Under the pieces are notes generated by a model. It had not been told where the DNA came from. It saw nothing but the letters and a program-made list of their open reading frames with translations, and ran no database searches. Source: Terasakiella brassicae (GTDB taxonomy: Bacteria; Pseudomonadota; Alphaproteobacteria; Rhodospirillales; Terasakiellaceae). Taken from it: a DNA stretch of 32,361 bases. The DNA lies in assembly GCF_014641495.1 (NCBI RefSeq), contig NZ_BMHV01000029.1:1-32361 (forward strand), read 5' to 3'. Each line of letters starts with the position of its first letter. Within the stretch, counting starts at the first letter, position 1. A program made the translations under genes and the position numbers. This document shows positions 2,243 through 30,145 of this stretch, in pieces.

Positions 2243-3931
2243 TTATTCCCTGACGTTTCGCACATCACTGAGGAAAACCTCAATTTGTGCTTTCAAGGTT
2301 TCAAACTGGCAATCTAAATCATCCGCCTTGGACAAAACATTTTGCGCCGACTGGCAGGATTGCTCGACCTCCCCTTTTAAGACCGCGATAAAATCATCCA
2401 CTTGCTGCACTGCCTGAGATGAACCGTCTATATTTTGAGCAATATTACCTGTTGCTGCTGTTTGTTCTTCAACCGCAGAGGCAATAGAGGCATTGATCCG
2501 GTCAATTTCTGAAACCGTATCGGAAATATCGCCGATCCGTAAAACAGCATCCTGTGTTGCCGATTGAATGGCATCGATATATTGCTGAATTTCATCAGTT
2601 GCACGCCCCGTCTGGCTAGCCAGATTTTTAACTTCCCCGGCAACGACAGCAAATCCTTTCCCCGCCTCGCCTGCCCGTGCAGCTTCGATCGTCGCATTAA
2701 GCGCCAGTAAATTGGTTTGTTCTGCAATGCTGTTAATCAGCCCCGCAGCCTGACCGATTTTTTCCGCCGCATCGGATAGTTTCTCAACAGAAGCCTGTGT
2801 GGCTTGTGTTTTTTCCACGCCATCCGTGGATTTGCGCGAAGACAAGTTCACCTGTTGACTGATTTCAGCAATAGAGGAAGCAAGCTGTTCCGCCAGCGCA
2901 CTGACTTCCCCCATATTCGTTGCCGCATGAGACGAATTTTGCGTGACATTTTCGGCACGTTCCAAAATTTGTTCTGTGGACCCATGAATATCTTGCGAAA
3001 CTTTCCCCATAGAATGCAATGAGCCTGACACATCCTGAACCAGATCACCAATGTTTCGGTCAAAAACTTCGATCAATGCTTTACGTTTTTGCGCCCGTTC
3101 ACGTGACGCTTCACTCGCACGTACGGTTTCGTTCGCCAATTCCTCAACCTTAATCATGCTTTCCTTGAAAACGACAACTGCCTTAGCCATTCCACCAACT
3201 TCATCCTGACGGTCTGTTGCTGGAATTTCTACCCCTTTATCCCCATCGGCCAAACGTGACATCGCCTGTGTCATTTCGTTAATCGGTAAAAGAATGCTGC
3301 GCCCCAGAAACAGTAATAAAATCCCGGATATACCCGCTGCAATCGCAAACCCGATCGATGTAATATAAGACGAAGCCGTTAGTGAATCGTCTGCTTCCAG
3401 CGAGGAATGATCAAGCTTCTGTTGAATATTTTCCCCAATCGCACCGATATTGCGATCCAGTCGATCACCAATAAGATCAACCACCAATCCAATTTTGGTA
3501 AGAGCACCGAAATTCACGGTCCCTTTTTCCACCATTGGGCCAAACCCGGTATTTAAACCGGAAATAAGTTTATCTAAATCCTTGGTTATTAAATCGACCA
3601 AGCGTTGAGAGTTTTCATCCCGCGCATATTGTTTGAGCTTGTCATTATTGGAAAGCAGGAGTTTTCCATTCTCTGCCATGCTTTCAAAGAGGTCTTTGTC
3701 AATTTCTTCATTCACTGCTGACAAAATCATTTTATTTGCCTGAGAAGTCACGATCAGGTTTTGACGACGTAACAGGTTGAGAAAATCAATATCTCGACGC
3801 AGATCACTCGCCACCTGTGCCGTTTTTTGTGCTTTCGTATTGGTCCAAAGACCCGTCCCCCAAATAACTGAAAGCGCCATTAAAACAATTGCACAAATCA
3901 AAATGATTTTATTGCGAATTGTAAGGTTCAT
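2243..3931 (-). CDS. Methyl-accepting chemotaxis protein (transmembrane, HAMP)
   Basis: A classical chemoreceptor of 562 residues. A transmembrane helix lies at about 8-28. An all-helical periplasmic sensor follows at about 30-190, of four-helix-bundle type with no recognisable small-molecule fold. A second transmembrane helix is at about 190-212. The HAMP domain (about 213-265) has the [14 protein letters not shown] stretch typical of alphaproteobacterial receptors. The cytoplasmic signalling hairpin contains the conserved tip [18 protein letters not shown] and the [15 protein letters not shown] motif that contacts CheA/CheW. There is no C-terminal CheR/CheB-tethering pentapeptide. The ATG follows a GGGAGT ribosome site. 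The ligand cannot be predicted. No che kinase or adaptor genes are adjacent, so it must work with an array encoded elsewhere. Confidence 0.97.
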
Positions 3932-5384: not shown

Positions 5385-7058
5385 ATGGCGAGTATCGATA
5401 AAACAAAAAGAGAAAAAGAACGTTTCGTAGCCCTGTCTTTTTGCCGGGCCGATCTTCTGTTCGAATTAAATGACAATCGTGACATTGAATTTGTTGCCGG
5501 GGCAACACCTGTTTTGCTTGGGAAAACGGCACAGGAAATGACAGCGACCTCTTTTGCTGATTATATTCACAACGAAGATGTCAAACTTGTAAACGAACTT
5601 CTGGATACCGCCAGCAACAAGGGGCGTCTGGATGATGCTACCTTGTACCTGAAAGGTCCCAAGGGCATGAAACTGCGGGTTTCCTTATCCGGTTATCGCG
5701 TTCCTGATTTTAACAATCATTTTTTCCTTGCCCTTAAGGTTGATCCCCATCGCGGCAGTTTCGGCAAAATTGAACCGCTTAAACGCGAAGAAGAAACCAA
5801 TTTGTTAGAGACCGAATCTTTTGCACAGGCCGCTTCTGAACGCGTGACCTCCTTTATCCATGCAGGTGGGGATGCTCAAGTCTCCATGCTTAAAGTTAAT
5901 CATCTGGATAAACTTTTGAATACGGTCGGTGCGACAGATAAACAAAAGCTTCTGGGTGAAATTGGATCGATCTTAAGCGAAAGCTCGCTTGGCGGGGATA
6001 CGGCGAGTCGCATTGACGATACCAGCTTTAGCTTTGCCCACGCCAGCACAGTCGATACACAAGCCATCAATGAAAAAATTGAAGCCTTGGCCGCCCAAAT
6101 CCATCCCGATGGCGATATGGTGCAGGCCATATCCAGCACATTGGACGTTGACGGCGCGGGTATGAGCGAAGATCAGGTTGCGCGTGCCTTGATCCATACC
6201 ATGCAGCGGTTCTGTGAAAACAAAGGGTCCGTGCGTGAAAACGCCCTGTCTGATGTTTTGTCCGGTATGATGACCAATACTGTAAAAAATGTCGGTTTTA
6301 TTAAAGAAGTCGCCAAAAATATGGATTTCGACATTCATTTTATGCCGATTAACGACTTGAAACGCGGTTACGTCCATCATTTCGAAGGATTATTACGTTT
6401 TAAAGGCGAACGTTCCAAAGAATCGCCTTATCATATGATCTGTTTGGCCGAAGAGGTCGGTATTATCTGCGATCTGGATATGGCGGTTGTCAAAAAATCA
6501 ATCGAACGCGTCCATCATTTCAGGCAAACTCATTTCTTGCCCCCCTTGGCTATTAACCTGTCCGGTGCCTCCTTGGGCAACGACATGTTTATGCGCACCT
6601 TATACAATATGTTAAAAGATTCGCCGGAAATGTCGGGCCATTTACTATTTGAAATTACCGAGTCCGCGCGCATTGAAGATTTACCCAAGGTAAACCGTAT
6701 CCTGCAATCTATCCGCAAACTGGATTTCGAAGTCTGTCTGGATGATTTTGGTGCAGGCGCTGCCAGCTTTGACTACCTGAATGGACTAGACGTTGATGTG
6801 GTCAAATTCGACGGGCCTGTTGTCAAGCGGGCTTACTCAACCGAAAAAGGCAATGATCTCTTACGGGCCATGTCCAACATGTGCCATGACCTGAATATCC
6901 ATACCGTTGCGGAAATGGTAGAAGATGCCGCAATGGCAAAACACATGCAAGACTGCGGCATCGACTTCGGACAAGGCTGGTTCTTTGGTAAACCCGACCC
7001 TGACCCCATTCAGTATGCAAACAAATTTGCCCCGACATCAAAAGTTCGTCGCAAATAA
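5385..7058 (+). CDS. PAS / degenerate GGDEF / EAL-domain protein (c-di-GMP phosphodiesterase or sensor)
   Basis: Predicted soluble signalling protein of 557 residues. Residues about 10-118 resemble a PAS fold. Residues about 150-265 resemble a GGDEF domain in which the active-site loop has become RIDDTSFSF, so diguanylate cyclase activity is not expected. Residues about 305-550 are an EAL domain. Its first motif is EGLLR with Glu at 334 (Ala of EAL replaced by Gly). The other metal and catalytic positions look present: the Asn of INLSGASL, the Glu of FEITES, DDFGAG at 453-458, the Lys of VKFDG, the Glu of TVAEMVED and QGWFFGKP. Hydrolysis of cyclic di-GMP is therefore plausible. The ATG follows AGAGGTCGAG. 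It is probably co-transcribed with rluE. Confidence 0.9.
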   Translation: MASIDKTKREKERFVALSFCRADLLFELNDNRDIEFVAGATPVLLGKTAQEMTATSFADYIHNEDVKLVNELLDTASNKGRLDDATLYLKGPKGMKLRVSLSGYRVPDFNNHFFLALKVDPHRGSFGKIEPLKREEETNLLETESFAQAASERVTSFIHAGGDAQVSMLKVNHLDKLLNTVGATDKQKLLGEIGSILSESSLGGDTASRIDDTSFSFAHASTVDTQAINEKIEALAAQIHPDGDMVQAISSTLDVDGAGMSEDQVARALIHTMQRFCENKGSVRENALSDVLSGMMTNTVKNVGFIKEVAKNMDFDIHFMPINDLKRGYVHHFEGLLRFKGERSKESPYHMICLAEEVGIICDLDMAVVKKSIERVHHFRQTHFLPPLAINLSGASLGNDMFMRTLYNMLKDSPEMSGHLLFEITESARIEDLPKVNRILQSIRKLDFEVCLDDFGAGAASFDYLNGLDVDVVKFDGPVVKRAYSTEKGNDLLRAMSNMCHDLNIHTVAEMVEDAAMAKHMQDCGIDFGQGWFFGKPDPDPIQYANKFAPTSKVRRK

Positions 7059-7316: not shown

Positions 7317-7332
7317 TGGCACTACTTTTGCT
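7317..7332 (+). promoter_or_regulatory. Sigma-54 (RpoN) promoter of the Amt-MCP gene
   Basis: TGGCAC (7317-7322), five bases, then TTGCT (7328-7332): the invariant GG (7318-7319) and GC (7330-7331) are ten bases apart, the exact sigma-54 -24/-12 arrangement. Transcription would start near 7342, about 50 bases before the ATG. Ammonium transporter genes are classic NtrC/sigma-54 targets, so induction under nitrogen limitation is expected. Upstream, a single TTGCACC half-site (7244-7250) resembles half of an NtrC operator; a full palindrome is not visible. Confidence 0.85.
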
Positions 7333-7392: not shown

Positions 7393-9885
7393 ATGACGGT
7401 ATTAAAAAATGGACCAAAGGCGGTTCTATTTTCAGCTCTTCTCGCCGTCATCTACTTTTGCTCAGTCAAAAGCGGATGGGCAATGGAAGCTAAAGCGCTT
7501 GAAGAACGCCTGACTTTTCTTGAGAACGAACTTAATCAAAAACAATTAAATATCGACCATATCTGGACCATGATGGCCGCTTGCCTCGTCTTTTTCATGC
7601 AAGGCGGCTTTTTATTACTGGAAGCCGGGCTGGTACGGTCTAAAAACTCAATTAACGTTGCACAAAAAAATATTGCCGATTTCATTCTTGCGACCGTCTG
7701 TTTTGGGGCGGTTGGTTTTATGATTATGTTTGGTGGTTCCATCGGTGGACTTATCGGTTTTGATTGGGATTTATTTGCCTTTGACAAAGTGGAAGACTGG
7801 ACCTTCACCTTTTTCGTATTCCAAGTCGTTTTCTGTGGCACAGCCGCCACGATTGTCTCCGGTGCCGTTGCCGAACGTATGAAATTTGGGGGGTATCTTG
7901 CGGTAACTCTTGTCATTTCCCTTCTGATCTATCCTGTATTCGGGCATTGGGCATGGGGGAACCTTTTGGTAACTGAGAATGAACCCTTTTTAGCCTCCCT
8001 CGGGTTCATTGACTTTGCGGGTTCTACGGTTGTGCACTCTGTAGGTGGATGGGTTGCTTTGGCGGCTATCCTTGTCATCGGCCCCCGTATCGGGCGTTAT
8101 GATGAAAACGGAAAACCTGTTTCCATCAACGGTCACAGTCCGGTTCTGGCGACATTTGGCTGTATTATCCTCTGGATCGGCTGGATTGGTTTTAACGGTG
8201 GATCGACAACAGCGGGCACCCCGGCATTTGCCCATATCATTGCAAACACTATTGTTTCCGGTGCCATTGGTGGCCTTGTCGGGCTTTTCCTCGGACGGTT
8301 TGTGGATGGACATTACCGCCCAGACCGTTCAATCAACGGCGTTCTTGGTGGCTTGGTCGGCATTACAGCCGGGTGTGATACCGTCAGCTTATGGGGGGCA
8401 ATCTTCATTGGTGGTGGCAGTGCTGTCGCTGTTGTCTTTGCCGCCGACTTCCTCGAAAAACGATTAAAGGCGGATGACGTTGTCGGTGCGGTTTCCGTCC
8501 ACGGTGTCGCTGGTGCCTTTGGAACCATTGCCCTTGCCCTTGTCGCCCCGGCTGGTGCCTTTGAAGGCGGCATGTGGGCGCAACTTGGTATACAAAGCTT
8601 TGGTGTCGGTGTTGCATTCCTTTGGGCCTTTGCCCTTCCCTATTTCCTTTTCAAAGTCATTGATAAGATGTTTAAAGGGGGGATGCGCGTTAGTGGCGAA
8701 GATGAAATGAATGGCCTAAACTTTGCCGAACATGCTGCAACAATGGGCGCCTCGCATGTCCTGCGGGAAATGGAGCACGTTTTTGGCGCCACATCGGGGG
8801 AGGAGGAACCCCACGCAAATTTTATCGCAGCTGATGAGGCCGATGAAATTGCCTTTTATTTCAAGCGCCTCATGGACCGCAACGCCTCTCTCGTCACAGG
8901 CATGCAGAAAACGACATCCGTTTTGGTTCAAGCCGCACAGAACCTGACACACATGTCGACAAACCTAAGCGCACAGGCGGAACAAACACAATCGCGCGCT
9001 TTTGAGTTGGAAAGTACAACGCAGAACGTATCAGGCAATATGAATATTATGGCCACTGGTGTCGGTGAAGCCGGAACCCTCGCACAAGCCATTGCCAAAA
9101 ACGCCGACGACATGTCCTTGACGGTTCAATCGGTTGCCGACGAAATCCGCAACGTCATGGGCAGTATCGAAGAAATCTCCAATTCTACCGGGGAAACACA
9201 AAGCGTACTGAATAATGCCGTTGTCGAAGTCCGCCAAGGACGTGACAAGATGAAAGCTCTTGGTACTGCGGCACGCGACACAGGACAGGTCCTGAGCTTA
9301 ATCAGCGACATTGCCAATCAAACCAACATGCTGGCCTTAAATGCCACCATCGAAGCGGCCCGCAGCGGCCAAGCCGGAAAAGGGTTTGCGGTCGTCGCCG
9401 GGGAAGTCAAAAAACTTGCCGATCAAACCGCCAAAGCCATTGCCAATATCGAGACACGCGTTTTGAACATGCAAGCTGGTGCCAGCGATGCCGTTCAGGT
9501 TATGGAAAGAATCGCGGGACTGGTCGAACATGTTAATGATACCGCCGATGGCATTAACCTTGCGGTTGGTCGCCAAACATCTGCTGCCGATAAAATCACC
9601 GGGCGCCTGAACAAGATGACCGACATGACATCGCATGTCGCAGCTGAAATCAACCGGGTTGCTGCCAACACAAATGAAGCATCCTATATGGCCGGAGATG
9701 CCGCCACACAGACCGGTAACTTGAATGACGGTATTCTTGATGTCAAACAAGCCGCCAGCCTCAGTCACACCCAAGCCAGCAGCCTGAAAGCAGAAGCCGA
9801 ACAAATTTCACGCTCCGCCCATGATCTGAATAAGCTTGTGAACAGCCTGTCCTTACACAAACAAGCACAGGAAGCCGCTGAATAA
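7393..9885 (+). CDS. Ammonium transporter fused to a chemoreceptor signalling domain (Amt-MCP)
   Basis: A fusion protein of 830 residues. Residues 1-30 are a signal peptide and 31-53 a short charged, heptad-like periplasmic helix. Residues about 54-465 are a complete Amt/Rh ammonium channel. Its key AmtB positions are present: the Phe gate in FQVVFCG, the Trp/Phe of WIGWIGFNGGS, Asp in IDFAGST and the twin pore histidines at 215 (VVHSVGG) and 370 (VSVHGVAG). A linker follows with no HAMP. Residues about 510-825 are an MCP hairpin with the CheA/CheW tip near 640 ([18 protein letters not shown]) and [15 protein letters not shown]; no CheR-tethering pentapeptide ends it. The ribosome site is CGGAGAG. 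No glnK lies next to it, unlike ordinary amtB. Ammonium sensing for chemotaxis is inference; an intact pore suggests it may also conduct. Confidence 0.95.
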   Translation: MTVLKNGPKAVLFSALLAVIYFCSVKSGWAMEAKALEERLTFLENELNQKQLNIDHIWTMMAACLVFFMQGGFLLLEAGLVRSKNSINVAQKNIADFILATVCFGAVGFMIMFGGSIGGLIGFDWDLFAFDKVEDWTFTFFVFQVVFCGTAATIVSGAVAERMKFGGYLAVTLVISLLIYPVFGHWAWGNLLVTENEPFLASLGFIDFAGSTVVHSVGGWVALAAILVIGPRIGRYDENGKPVSINGHSPVLATFGCIILWIGWIGFNGGSTTAGTPAFAHIIANTIVSGAIGGLVGLFLGRFVDGHYRPDRSINGVLGGLVGITAGCDTVSLWGAIFIGGGSAVAVVFAADFLEKRLKADDVVGAVSVHGVAGAFGTIALALVAPAGAFEGGMWAQLGIQSFGVGVAFLWAFALPYFLFKVIDKMFKGGMRVSGEDEMNGLNFAEHAATMGASHVLREMEHVFGATSGEEEPHANFIAADEADEIAFYFKRLMDRNASLVTGMQKTTSVLVQAAQNLTHMSTNLSAQAEQTQSRAFELESTTQNVSGNMNIMATGVGEAGTLAQAIAKNADDMSLTVQSVADEIRNVMGSIEEISNSTGETQSVLNNAVVEVRQGRDKMKALGTAARDTGQVLSLISDIANQTNMLALNATIEAARSGQAGKGFAVVAGEVKKLADQTAKAIANIETRVLNMQAGASDAVQVMERIAGLVEHVNDTADGINLAVGRQTSAADKITGRLNKMTDMTSHVAAEINRVAANTNEASYMAGDAATQTGNLNDGILDVKQAASLSHTQASSLKAEAEQISRSAHDLNKLVNSLSLHKQAQEAAE

Positions 9886-9946: not shown

Positions 9947-10023
9947 TGGTAGCTGGAGGCAGACTTGAACTGCCGACCTCGGCATTATGAGTGCCGCGCT
10001 CTAACCAGCTGAGCTATCCAGCC
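9947..10023 (-). tRNA. tRNA-Met (anticodon CAU)
   Basis: A 77-base cloverleaf on the minus strand with encoded CCA. The acceptor stem is 5' GGCTGGA with 3' TCCAGCT (a G-U pair at 1-72), the D-arm contains AGCTCAGCTGGTTAGAGC, the anticodon loop is CTCATAA on a CGGCA/TGCCG stem, and the T-loop is TTCAAGT. CAU fits elongator Met; a lysidine-modified tRNA-Ile2 has the same genomic anticodon and cannot be fully excluded. The variable region AGGTC and single-copy context do not distinguish them. Confidence 0.93.
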
Positions 10024-27142: not shown

Positions 27143-30100
27143 ATGACATCACTTTGGTACCAAACGGTTAACAGCCCTCTCCCACAGGCTTCTGATACAG
27201 AAAAAGCAGATGTCGGTTTTCTTCATTGGCAAGAAGCCTGCGAGCGCATTGATGACACTGAACGCAAGGCGTTTGCAACCCATCTTATAAAAGATGAACA
27301 GGCACGCAAAATATTTTGCTCTATTTTCGGCAACAGCCCATTCTTAACCCATTGTGTTTTAAAAGATATTTTATTCTTTTCCACCTTGATGCAAGAAGGG
27401 CCGGACAAGACCTTTAAACAGCTTATGTCAGACCTTACAGCCTTCTGGGAAACTCAACCCGAACGCGAAGCCATGGCCAAAGAGTTGCGAATCACCAAAC
27501 GAAAAGCGGCCCTGACCATCGCCTTGGCTGATATTTGTCAGACATGGGATGTTTTTCAAGTTACCGACAACCTGACAACATTGGCCGAAACGTCCTTGGA
27601 TTATGCCTGTGGGACACTTTTGCGCGAAGGCCATCAACGCGGGTATTTTAAATTACCCGACCCGGAAAACCATCCACAAAAAGGGTCCGGCTTGATCGTA
27701 CTCGGCATGGGAAAGCTTGGGGGGCGCGAACTGAATTATTCCAGTGACGTGGATATTATTGTTCTTTTCGACACCGACGTTATTCAAACAGACGATCCGT
27801 GGGATTTACAAAAAAATATGGTGCGCCTGACCAAACAACTGGTGCAAATGATGGATGACCGCACCGCACATGGGTATGTCTTTCGCACCGATCTTCGTTT
27901 GCGCCCCGACCCCGGTTCCACCCCGTTAGCCCTATCCGTTTTGGCGGCTGAAACCTATTATGAAAGTATTGGGCAAAACTGGGAACGCGCTGCCATGATC
28001 AAGGCCCGCCCGGTTGCCGGCGATATTGAGGCCGGTTACGCCTTCCTTGAAATTTTGCGTCCCTATATGTGGCGCAAATATATGGATTTTGCGGCAATTC
28101 AGGATATCCATGCCATTAAACGCCAGATTAATGCGCATAAAGGCGGACATAACATTGCCCTGAACGGACATAATGTCAAATTGGGCCACGGCGGCATTCG
28201 CGAAATTGAATTTTACGCCCAGACCCAACAACTTATCTGGGGTGGGCGCAATCCTGACGTTCGGATTGCCCCGACATGTAAAGCCTTACAAGCACTGGTT
28301 GATGCAGAACAGGTTGAGCAAGACGTGTGCGATAACCTCATTGAAAGCTATCAATACCTGCGCAAGGTCGAACATCGCATTCAGATGACCAATGATGAAC
28401 AAACCCATTCCATTCCCGAAGATGACGCGGCCGTGGAACGTTTGGCAATTTTCCTCGGTTATGAAAATAAGGACAGTTTTGCAACAGAATTCATCGCACA
28501 CTTGGAACGGGTCGAAACCTATTACGCCGAACTGTTTGAAGAAAGCAGCGAGGTAAACACCCATGCGAAAGAAACAGGAAACCTTGTCTTTACCGGTGGC
28601 GACCCTGATCCCGGTACCCTGACATACCTGCGTTCCATTGGTTTTGAAAACCCCGGATTTGTCGACACAACCGTGCGAGGCTGGCATCATGCCCGCTATC
28701 GCGCAACACGAAGCCGGCGTTCGCGCGAAATTCTAACCGATTTGATGCCGGCCCTCCTCCACGCCCTTGCACAAACGGCAGAACCGGACACGGCCTTTCG
28801 TCATTTTGACGATTTCCTGAGCAAGCTTCCCTCAGGCGTACAACTTTTTTCCATGTTTCAGGTCAACCCACATCTTTTAGATTTGGTGGCCGAGGTTATG
28901 GGCGAAGCCCCGCGTCTGGCTGAACACCTCGCCCGTAATTCCACATTGCTGGAATATGTTCTCACACCCGATTTCTTTACACCCCTTCCCGATGTCACTG
29001 AATTACGCGAGGATTTGCAAAAAGTTCTGGAACAGGCGCGTGACTTTCAAGATGTTTTGGATCTGTCACGGCGTTGGGCCAATGATCGTAAGTTCCAGGT
29101 TGGCGTACAAACCTTGCGTCAAATCATCACGATTAAAGAGTCAGGACTGGCACAAACCCATATTGCAGAAGCCATTATTCAGGAAATTCTGCCCTGCGTG
29201 ATCGATGAGTTGGCTCAAAAACACGGCATTATCGAGCAAGGCGAAATTTGCATCGTCGGTCTCGGCAAGGCAGGCAGTCGAGACATGACCGCAACCAGTG
29301 ACCTTGATCTTGTCTTTATATATGAAGCCCCCGAAGACTGCATCGGATCAAACGGCGAGCGCAGCCTGAGTGTCGCGCAATATTACGCACGCCTGTCACA
29401 ACGCTTTATCAATGCCCTGACCGCCCCCACCGGGGATGGTATGCTTTATGAAGTCGACATGCGCCTAAGACCATCGGGCAATTCCGGCCCAATTGCCTCC
29501 AGTCTGGACTCCTTTATCCGTTATCACAATGAAGCTGCCTGGACGTGGGAACACATGGCCCTGACCCGCGCACGTGTAATCAGCGGCGCGCCGTCCCTCA
29601 GCGCCAAAGTTGAACAACACATTCAGGACGTTCTATGTCGACAACGTGACAATGATAAGCTTCTCTTTGATGTCGCTGATATGCGCAAAAGGATGGATAA
29701 AGAACATCACACGGATATCGTCTGGGACATCAAACAATATCGCGGTGGTATCGTCGACATTGATTTTATGGCGCAATATCTGCAACTACGTCATGCCTGC
29801 GATTATCCTGACATTCTGCAAAACAACACGATTGATGTTTTACATAAGGCCCGCGATCTGGAGATTATCGATGAAGCAATGGCCAATGATTTGATATCCG
29901 CTGTCGAATTATGGAACATCATTCAGGGCTACCTGCGCCTCACCGTTGCGGCTGAATTGAAAAAGAAAGACGGCGGTGATCTGCCTCATGCCTTAAAAGA
30001 CGACCTTGTTCAGGCCTGCGGGGAACCCTCGTTCGATATGCTCTGTGAACGGATGAAAAATTCAGCAGATCTTGTTTTGAAACATTATAAACAATTGATC

Positions 30101-30145
30101 GATACACCGGCATCGACTATCACTTTACAAGACAATAAACAATAA
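27143..30145 (+). CDS. glnE: Glutamine synthetase adenylyltransferase/deadenylylase
   Basis: GlnE, 1000 residues, switches glutamine synthetase off by adenylylation and on again by deadenylylation in response to PII proteins and glutamine. The two nucleotidyltransferase domains are clear: the deadenylylase motif GMGKLGGRELNYSSDVDI near residue 187 and the adenylylase motif GLGKAGSRDMTATSDLDL near residue 706. The length fits alphaproteobacterial enzymes. GGGGGA is upstream of the ATG. bcp follows after 12 bases, probably on the same message. With the Amt-MCP gene it gives the window two nitrogen-control functions. Confidence 0.98.
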   Translation: MTSLWYQTVNSPLPQASDTEKADVGFLHWQEACERIDDTERKAFATHLIKDEQARKIFCSIFGNSPFLTHCVLKDILFFSTLMQEGPDKTFKQLMSDLTAFWETQPEREAMAKELRITKRKAALTIALADICQTWDVFQVTDNLTTLAETSLDYACGTLLREGHQRGYFKLPDPENHPQKGSGLIVLGMGKLGGRELNYSSDVDIIVLFDTDVIQTDDPWDLQKNMVRLTKQLVQMMDDRTAHGYVFRTDLRLRPDPGSTPLALSVLAAETYYESIGQNWERAAMIKARPVAGDIEAGYAFLEILRPYMWRKYMDFAAIQDIHAIKRQINAHKGGHNIALNGHNVKLGHGGIREIEFYAQTQQLIWGGRNPDVRIAPTCKALQALVDAEQVEQDVCDNLIESYQYLRKVEHRIQMTNDEQTHSIPEDDAAVERLAIFLGYENKDSFATEFIAHLERVETYYAELFEESSEVNTHAKETGNLVFTGGDPDPGTLTYLRSIGFENPGFVDTTVRGWHHARYRATRSRRSREILTDLMPALLHALAQTAEPDTAFRHFDDFLSKLPSGVQLFSMFQVNPHLLDLVAEVMGEAPRLAEHLARNSTLLEYVLTPDFFTPLPDVTELREDLQKVLEQARDFQDVLDLSRRWANDRKFQVGVQTLRQIITIKESGLAQTHIAEAIIQEILPCVIDELAQKHGIIEQGEICIVGLGKAGSRDMTATSDLDLVFIYEAPEDCIGSNGERSLSVAQYYARLSQRFINALTAPTGDGMLYEVDMRLRPSGNSGPIASSLDSFIRYHNEAAWTWEHMALTRARVISGAPSLSAKVEQHIQDVLCRQRDNDKLLFDVADMRKRMDKEHHTDIVWDIKQYRGGIVDIDFMAQYLQLRHACDYPDILQNNTIDVLHKARDLEIIDEAMANDLISAVELWNIIQGYLRLTVAAELKKKDGGDLPHALKDDLVQACGEPSFDMLCERMKNSADLVLKHYKQLIDTPASTITLQDNKQ

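Follow-up and report, generated by a model that had tools for sequence, protein, structure and literature searches.

What is an ammonium transporter (Amt) domain doing at the head of a chemoreceptor? The question is raised by a 32,361-nucleotide stretch of DNA from Terasakiella brassicae, of the Rhodospirillales in the Alphaproteobacteria (contig NZ_BMHV01000029.1, positions 1-32,361; termed here the window), in which one gene encodes an 830-residue protein (P0001) that joins an Amt domain to the signalling hairpin of a methyl-accepting chemotaxis protein (MCP). Amt domains that act as receptors for ammonium, with a kinase or a cyclase as their output, are already known; an original prediction, made from the letters of the window, had proposed that here ammonium is reported to the chemotaxis pathway instead. 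The analysis described below supports that proposal as a prediction, from which ammonium taxis would follow: the fusion is probably an orphan ammonium chemoreceptor that signals through CheA without canonical methylation and that is probably made under nitrogen limitation.

Domain architecture

The predicted single frame joining Amt to MCP is borne out by the uninterrupted reading frame, by Pfam and by an AlphaFold2 (AF2) model. Pfam places Ammonium_transp at residues 58-450 (345 bits; cut-off 23.2) and MCPsignal at residues 612-763 (104 bits; cut-off 34.6), and finds no further domain, HAMP included, at E 0.001. In the AF2 model, computed from a 38-row alignment, the Amt fold has a predicted local distance difference test score (pLDDT) mostly above 90; beyond it come a helix at 454-465, a loop, and a long helical hairpin that begins at about 483--not near 510, where the start of the rod had been placed--and that turns near residue 658. 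Over the whole model the mean pLDDT is 79 and the predicted template-modelling score 0.60, with poor values for the linker and for the part of the rod nearest the membrane. The best Foldseek matches of the model are 6eu6 and 8qj3/8qj4.

Ahead of the first transmembrane helix (TM1), Amt-MCPs carry a signal peptide (assigned by eye in the fusion) and an amphipathic periplasmic helix of about 25 residues; Amt-histidine kinases (Amt-HK) and Amt-GGDEF proteins begin much nearer TM1. By a crude measure, the median number of residues from the first methionine to W58, the values are 50.5 for Amt-MCPs, 14.5 for Amt-HK and Amt-GGDEF, and 42.5 for ordinary Amts. Coordinates are collected in Table 1.

Table 1. 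Coordinates of the Amt-MCP gene, its parts and its promoter-like site, with the loci of comparable plain Amts
Feature	Position in window, or loci	Strand	Basis or remark
Amt-MCP fusion gene (P0001), 830 aa	7393..9885	+	ATG start, no internal stop
Residues 1-57: predicted signal peptide and ~25-residue periplasmic helix ahead of TM1	7393..7563	+	sequence, AF2 helix
Sensor-type Amt domain, residues 58-450	7564..8742	+	Pfam, residue alignment, Foldseek 6eu6
Linker, residues 451-500, degenerate HAMP; DE..E motif 481-485 = start of AS2 (second amphipathic helix of HAMP)	8743..8892	+	profile comparison, spacing, AF2
MCP signalling hairpin, residues 501-820, no consensus methylation motif	8893..9852	+	Pfam, AF2, motif scan
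Hairpin tip, residues 639-681, CheA/CheW contact region in MCPs	9307..9435	+	identity to genome MCP consensus
Sigma-54 (-24/-12) promoter-like site TGGCAC-N5-TTGCT	7317..7332	+	76 bp before ATG
Plain Amts with Ks-Amt5-type accessory site	L046, L075, L076, L077, L082, L083		433-457 aa

The sensor domain

The closest guide to the Amt domain is Ks-Amt5 of Kuenenia stuttgartiensis, an Amt-HK (6eu6) whose accessory two-ammonium site is made up, according to PMC5764959, of Q24, E31, N47, D50, T51, T109 and T112. Five of these residues are identical in the fusion (Q70, E77, N93, D96 and T153), with S156 standing for T112 and F97 for T51; phenylalanine likewise occupies the T51 position in 23/26 Amt-HK and 55/61 Amt-GGDEF. 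Among the 38 Amt-MCPs, all have the asparagine, the aspartate and T109, and all but one, which is gapped at that point, have the glutamine and the glutamate; the five residues are also retained in 26/26 Amt-HK and, among the 61 Amt-GGDEF, in 59 or 60. Of the two ordinary Amts of the genome, L002 has A in place of Q, L in place of D and S in place of T109, and L003 has H for Q, I for N and A for T109. The kinship to Ks-Amt5 that had been suggested thus stands: the domain is a sensor-type Amt, with 6eu6 its best structural match.

The signalling hairpin and its missing methylation motif

At the far end of the protein, the tip is intact: 81% of its 43 positions agree with the consensus of those 33 other MCPs of this genome that were analysed (two of the 34 genome MCPs fetched lack a tip). 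The genome encodes 36 MCPs, the fusion counted, together with two CheA and two CheR, and CheA is found in 30/30 Amt-MCP genomes tested versus 53/115 genomes of a sample of the class. The hairpin has the same length as that of most other receptors of the genome, because its DE motif and the arginine of the tip (D481 to R657) are 176 residues apart and the corresponding spacing is 176-178 in 20/33 other MCPs (counted by eye), with one more at 179. It is also 176 in 23 of the 32 Amt-MCPs, out of 38, in which it can be measured; the other nine range from 131 to 253. An ordinary HAMP-bearing MCP encoded elsewhere in the window (2243-3931, minus strand) has the spacing of 176 as well.

In the chemoreceptor literature, the consensus for methylation sites is [ASTG]2-x2-[EQ]2-x2-[ASTG]2. 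Within 135 residues of the tip, this motif occurs in 0/35 Amt-MCPs, the window's fusion included (three of the 38 had no tip match and were excluded from the methylation and tip comparisons and from the MCP tree), but in 28/33 of the genome's other MCPs (usually at -71 and +69/+70) and in 45/47 MCPs from eight other Amt-MCP genomes; ordinary receptors of the nine genomes together thus have it in 73/80 cases. (Of the 50 control loci from the eight genomes, two without a tip and one Amt-MCP were left out; 30 were strong matches, which lean to canonical receptors, and the other 20 were picked by eye.) Amt-MCPs are also highly diverged: their identity to the genome consensus averages 76% at the tip (58-91%) and 24-25% in the methylation flanks, versus 88% (lowest 74%) and 57-59% for the ordinary MCPs. 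Because the 35 motif-free proteins share common ancestry, they do not represent independent losses. Moreover, some chemoreceptors lack consensus methylation sites, so that the absence of the motif denies the fusion the epithet 'methyl-accepting', not that of 'chemoreceptor'. Neither this absence nor the sigma-54 promoter-like site described below featured in the original prediction.

The linker

The prediction that no HAMP domain lies between the two halves holds literally, inasmuch as the window's protein has no Pfam HAMP match; yet the linker aligns with HAMP in register, and three relatives exceed the Pfam cut-off of 25 bits at this very place (Roseospirillum L009, 28.8; Rhodospira metagenome-assembled genome (MAG) L093, 34.8; Cohaesibacter L103, 31.3), while L034, at 22.7, falls under it. 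Seven of ten Amt-MCPs scanned lack a match; at E 0.01, HAMP matches occur in 12/38 Amt-MCPs, their place on the protein being known for four. When linker profiles were compared by hhalign with a HAMP profile from 21 MCPs of the same genome, selected by their DE motif, all three families aligned in register: Amt-MCP (38 sequences) with P 3e-4, Amt-HK (18) with P 6.5e-4 and Amt-GGDEF (19 of 22 rows) with P 1.5e-4. Nine control comparisons with other receptor segments gave P 0.05 or more (the three for Amt-MCP, 0.06 or more), and a PDB search with residues 442-529 gave nothing better than E 1.3. The HAMP register is further supported by the agreement in spacing from DE motif to tip. Hence the direct join originally envisaged gives way to a degenerate HAMP-like segment: most likely, judging from these comparisons, the linker is a HAMP-derived element fed by the C-terminal region of the Amt domain and degenerate in Terasakiella.

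Authenticity of the fusion

The error feared at the outset, namely that assembly or sequencing had joined two genes, is ruled out by the Terasakiella copies, by the constant spacing of the join and by selection at the junction. Full-length fusions occur in 4/5 other Terasakiella genomes at 78-82% identity; the fifth (G003) lacks one and has an Amt-GGDEF (L011). Across the junction (residues 440-540), differences at codon positions 1, 2 and 3, summed over four pairwise comparisons, number 66, 30 and 196, and there are 161 synonymous versus 68 nonsynonymous codon changes; the Amt, linker and MCP parts, the junction included, are all under purifying selection. In 37/38 Amt-MCPs, from separate assemblies and many genera, the distance from the GLN to the DE motif is 39 or 40 residues. 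The full-length homologues in Terasakiella and the 38 distinct loci together rule out chance as well as an assembly error. In the Terasakiella pusilla copy (L008 / L092) the signal peptide is cut off from the Amt domain by an in-frame TAA, the rest of the frame being open; a pseudogene, an internal start or a sequencing error is possible there. At G002:C6:70301 and G004:C59:724110 the genus has two more Amt fusions or long Amts, whose open frames measure 660 and 700 aa.

Spread and phylogeny

A profile of six fusions was run against 385 genomes of the class and 398 of the phylum, with results that are minimum counts: apart from the window's own, full-length fusions occur in at least 4/385 class genomes (G094, G182, G268 and G347), where a fifth match (G170) is interrupted by a contig end, and in at least 2/398 phylum genomes (G575 and G780). 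Named genomes were scanned with Amt plus linker, the best 80 loci being taken. Over all sources there are at least 38 distinct Amt-MCP loci, mostly from Alphaproteobacteria, so that an architecture first described as less familiar is no one-off. Hosts among the matches listed are Rhodospira, Roseospirillum, Hwanghaeella, Azospirillum, Cohaesibacter, Tritonibacter, Roseobacter, Woodsholea, Roseibium, Rhodovulum and Methylobacterium MAGs and, outside Alphaproteobacteria, a Rubrivivax MAG and two Halalkalibacter (Bacillota). One copy (L038, from G268) has a 26-residue insertion within an Amt loop. Plasmids account for three Amt-MCPs (one in Phaeobacter, two in Tritonibacter) among 72,556 plasmid records at E 1e-60; on Phaeobacter inhibens pP88_b, typed as conjugative, the Amt-MCP (L257) carries the annotation 'ammonium transporter', and a recombinase and an IS481 transposase come after it.

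Output classes were labelled by the analysis's own motif patterns and in part by hand (five MCP rows, four truncated or other rows, and L064 and L085, which were added); L001, a repeat of the window, and L091, in the wrong frame, were left out, and the rows for the Amt tree were further reduced by five duplicates and a short one. Pfam finds Amt in 38/38 Amt-MCPs and MCPsignal in 37/38, the exception probably being L107, whose frame ends early; among 40 other fused rows it finds HisKA in 18 and GGDEF in 22. The Amt tree, a quick tree supported only by the Shimodaira-Hasegawa-like approximate likelihood ratio test (SH-aLRT) and having long branches at L063, L064 and L117, covers 90 of 158 rows: 38/38 MCP, 18/26 HK, 22/61 GGDEF and 12/30 without output. 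In it 35 of the 38 Amt-MCPs, nearly all alphaproteobacterial, form one clade (SH-aLRT 94), outside which lie L063 (from G575) and the two Halalkalibacter copies. With the six site-bearing plain Amts of Table 1 left out, the 78 fused rows split from the 12 ordinary Amts (branch support 95). The MCP label needs two changes on this tree; a single origin of the fusion is also possible.

In the MCP-domain tree, of whose 65 inner branches 37 are open, the five Terasakiella fusions form one group (support 100) outside a branch (support 92) that holds 29/33 other MCPs of the genome along with the distant Amt-MCPs L064 and L169. Recent capture of the MCP domain from a sister receptor in the same genome was accordingly rejected.

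Promoter and gene neighbourhood

The sequence TGGCACTACTTTTGCT upstream of the gene is a flawless -24/-12 element, and nothing else in the window matches the sigma-54 pattern exactly; with one mismatch the pattern has two matches there versus 1.63 expected. All five Terasakiella copies have such a site, with 10-11 of 11 consensus bases, 76-94 bp ahead of the start, and the genome encodes RpoN. A score of 9 or better is found at 7/38 Amt-MCP loci, the five Terasakiella among them; elsewhere, one Amt-HK locus scores 10 and one plain Amt locus 11.

The two ordinary Amts of the genome adjoin each other and a PII gene on contig C6. The fusion's own contig (C29) has no PII match, such matches lying only on C6, C3 and C1, and an operon of the fusion with PII was therefore rejected. 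So was a conserved gene partner: apart from one group of antisense frames and from what three Tritonibacter/Roseobacter loci share, the loci compared (named-genome loci and the window) have nothing but the fusion itself in common. In the window a gene for an EAL-domain protein (5385-7058, plus strand) lies just upstream; its place is taken in four other Terasakiella by what is presumably a TrmJ-like methyltransferase gene. Directly downstream is a tRNA-Met gene (9947-10023, minus strand); tRNA genes are common sites of gene insertion. A glnE-type glutamine synthetase adenylyltransferase gene (27143-30145, plus strand), 17 kb from the fusion, is probably unrelated.

Proposed mechanism and competing explanations

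The domains, the sensor site, the linker register, the intact tip, the missing methylation consensus, the co-occurrence with CheA and the sigma-54-like site are read from the sequence; the mechanism proposed to connect them is as follows. Ammonium from outside would enter the outer vestibule and bind at the accessory site beside the pore of a trimeric Amt. The occupied site would alter the C-terminal region of the Amt domain, and the degenerate HAMP-like linker would relay this change to the hairpin, which, as a presumed member of CheA/CheW arrays, would alter CheA activity and so bias the flagellar motor and, with it, the direction of taxis. In Terasakiella the gene is probably transcribed by RpoN, perhaps under NtrC control, which makes expression under nitrogen limitation likely. 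Without canonical methylation by CheR and CheB, the receptor would either give a standing output without adaptation or adapt via neighbouring receptors. Amts are trimers, whereas MCP hairpins form dimers, three of which make up a unit; two Amt trimers would thus supply six hairpins, as many as a single trimer of dimers needs.

A wider reading may be offered, more tentatively, as one that could well prove wrong: that Amt-MCPs form a widespread but so far unrecognised class of chemoreceptors for ammonium without methylation adaptation, in which three MCP dimers link two Amt trimers, occupancy sets a standing CheA signal, and RpoN switches the system on when nitrogen is short. If so, the cell would track the absolute level of ammonium and not its change alone.

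Several points weigh against reading the fusion as a methylation-independent ammonium receptor. A relaxed form of the methylation consensus (three of the four small residues) occurs, scattered, in 24/35 Amt-MCPs, as well as in 30/33 ordinary MCPs, so that non-standard methylation sites are possible. For the linker, the hhalign probability of the family matches to HAMP is only 28-51%, and the five Terasakiella linkers taken alone give no HAMP signal (P 0.22). Outside Terasakiella, none of the 33 Amt-MCP loci matches more than 9 of the 11 sigma-54 bases. The accessory site is also present in six plain Amts without an output domain, and so is not proof of signalling. The MCP part, moreover, may have been exchanged or gained more than once, because the Amt label needs six changes on the MCP-domain tree, where the starred branches force two. 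Lastly, the fusion may transport ammonium as well.

This last point leads to the best-surviving alternative, which is possible though judged unlikely: that the fusion still carries ammonium, and that CheA is told of flux or of a transport conformation instead of binding at a dead-end site. The filter (W188/S271), the phenylalanine gate (F147/F267) and the histidine pair (H215/H370) are all retained. Of the residues that plug the pore of Ks-Amt5 (F27, Y30 and F34; PMC5764959), the first is kept as F73, as in ordinary Amts, while Y30 and F34 are replaced by L76 and L80; with the plugs absent, transport is possible. Leucine at the Y30 position is shared by 23/26 Amt-HK and 57/61 Amt-GGDEF, so that the plugs do not define the sensor-Amt family. 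The nearest structures are titled as a sensor or receptor ('Sensor Amt Protein' for 6eu6; 'Receptor Sd-Amt1', in OFF and ON states, for 8qj3/8qj4), yet another entry for the Shewanella protein, 8qpf, bears the title ammonium transporter; and uptake is served by the two ordinary Amts beside the PII gene. Of the 'channel-receptor' initially proposed, then, the receptor remains, but 'channel' may be wrong, given the accessory ammonium site of sensor Amts; the energy taxis proposed alongside ammonium taxis finds no supporting feature.

It is improbable, though less readily dismissed than what follows, that the hairpin reports ammonium to a second CheA pathway governing gene expression or surface behaviour. 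The genome's two CheA genes and the loss of the methylation motif would fit such an output; but a hairpin as long as that of 20/33 other MCPs of the genome suggests membership of the main array, and in 14/30 Amt-MCP genomes tested there is a single CheA match. A decaying fusion that has lost its signalling is very unlikely: the degenerate HAMP, the lack of a methylation consensus in the window's lineage and the T. pusilla stop codon are what decay might leave, but purifying selection over every part of the gene and its junction, the conserved tip and the maintenance of the fusion over 38 loci all speak against it. As for two genes joined in error, the same join at the same spacing in separate assemblies from many genera leaves that explanation virtually no probability.

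Relation to known systems and significance

Ks-Amt5 resembles the fusion (43% identity) in having both an accessory ammonium site and a C-terminal transducer, and differs from it in ending in a kinase instead of an MCP hairpin, in having the Y30/F34 plugs and in having T51 where the fusion has F97; it is itself without a typical HAMP (PMC5764959). Sd-Amt1 of Shewanella denitrificans (8qj3/8qj4/8qpf) is likewise a sensor Amt, 45% identical to the fusion in 8qj3, but with another output domain. In that protein a HAMP domain reportedly connects Amt to a diguanylate cyclase, whereas the HAMP of the fusion is merely degenerate. The Amt-GGDEF-EAL proteins of Rhizobiaceae and the Amt-HK of Alphaproteobacteria fall within the same larger Amt clade as Amt-MCPs and share the accessory site and the HAMP-register linker, but have other outputs and a shorter N-terminus. 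Classical HAMP-bearing MCPs, such as the other one in the window, agree with the fusion in tip, hairpin length and AS2 register; their sensor, however, is periplasmic and lies between two helices, where the fusion has a many-helix Amt sensor and no methylation consensus. An ordinary assimilatory Amt, finally, would be expected beside a glnK/PII gene, and the fusion has none next to it.

No description of an Amt-MCP fusion was found in the literature searched (open-licence papers only, which is no proof of absence); one match to 'Amt-MCP', in PMC3699834, was rejected as the name of a GFP insert. Nor did a bacterial ammonium-taxis receptor turn up in that literature, where the matches concern mostly algae and a nematode, with one Clostridium paper. 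Relative to the open literature searched, what is new is a large Amt-MCP family, the HAMP register of its linker, its missing methylation consensus and the sigma-54-like site in one genus.

One consequence is that some counts of ammonium transporters include receptors, because at least one Amt-MCP is annotated 'ammonium transporter'. More generally, the family poses a structural question--how an Amt trimer might drive MCP dimers that are packed as trimers of dimers--and a functional one, namely how adaptation works in a family of chemoreceptors without consensus methylation sites. Amt-MCPs are concrete candidates for an ammonium-taxis receptor, and they are present also in cultured strains of Terasakiella, Roseospirillum, Tritonibacter, Phaeobacter, Azospirillum and Halalkalibacter.

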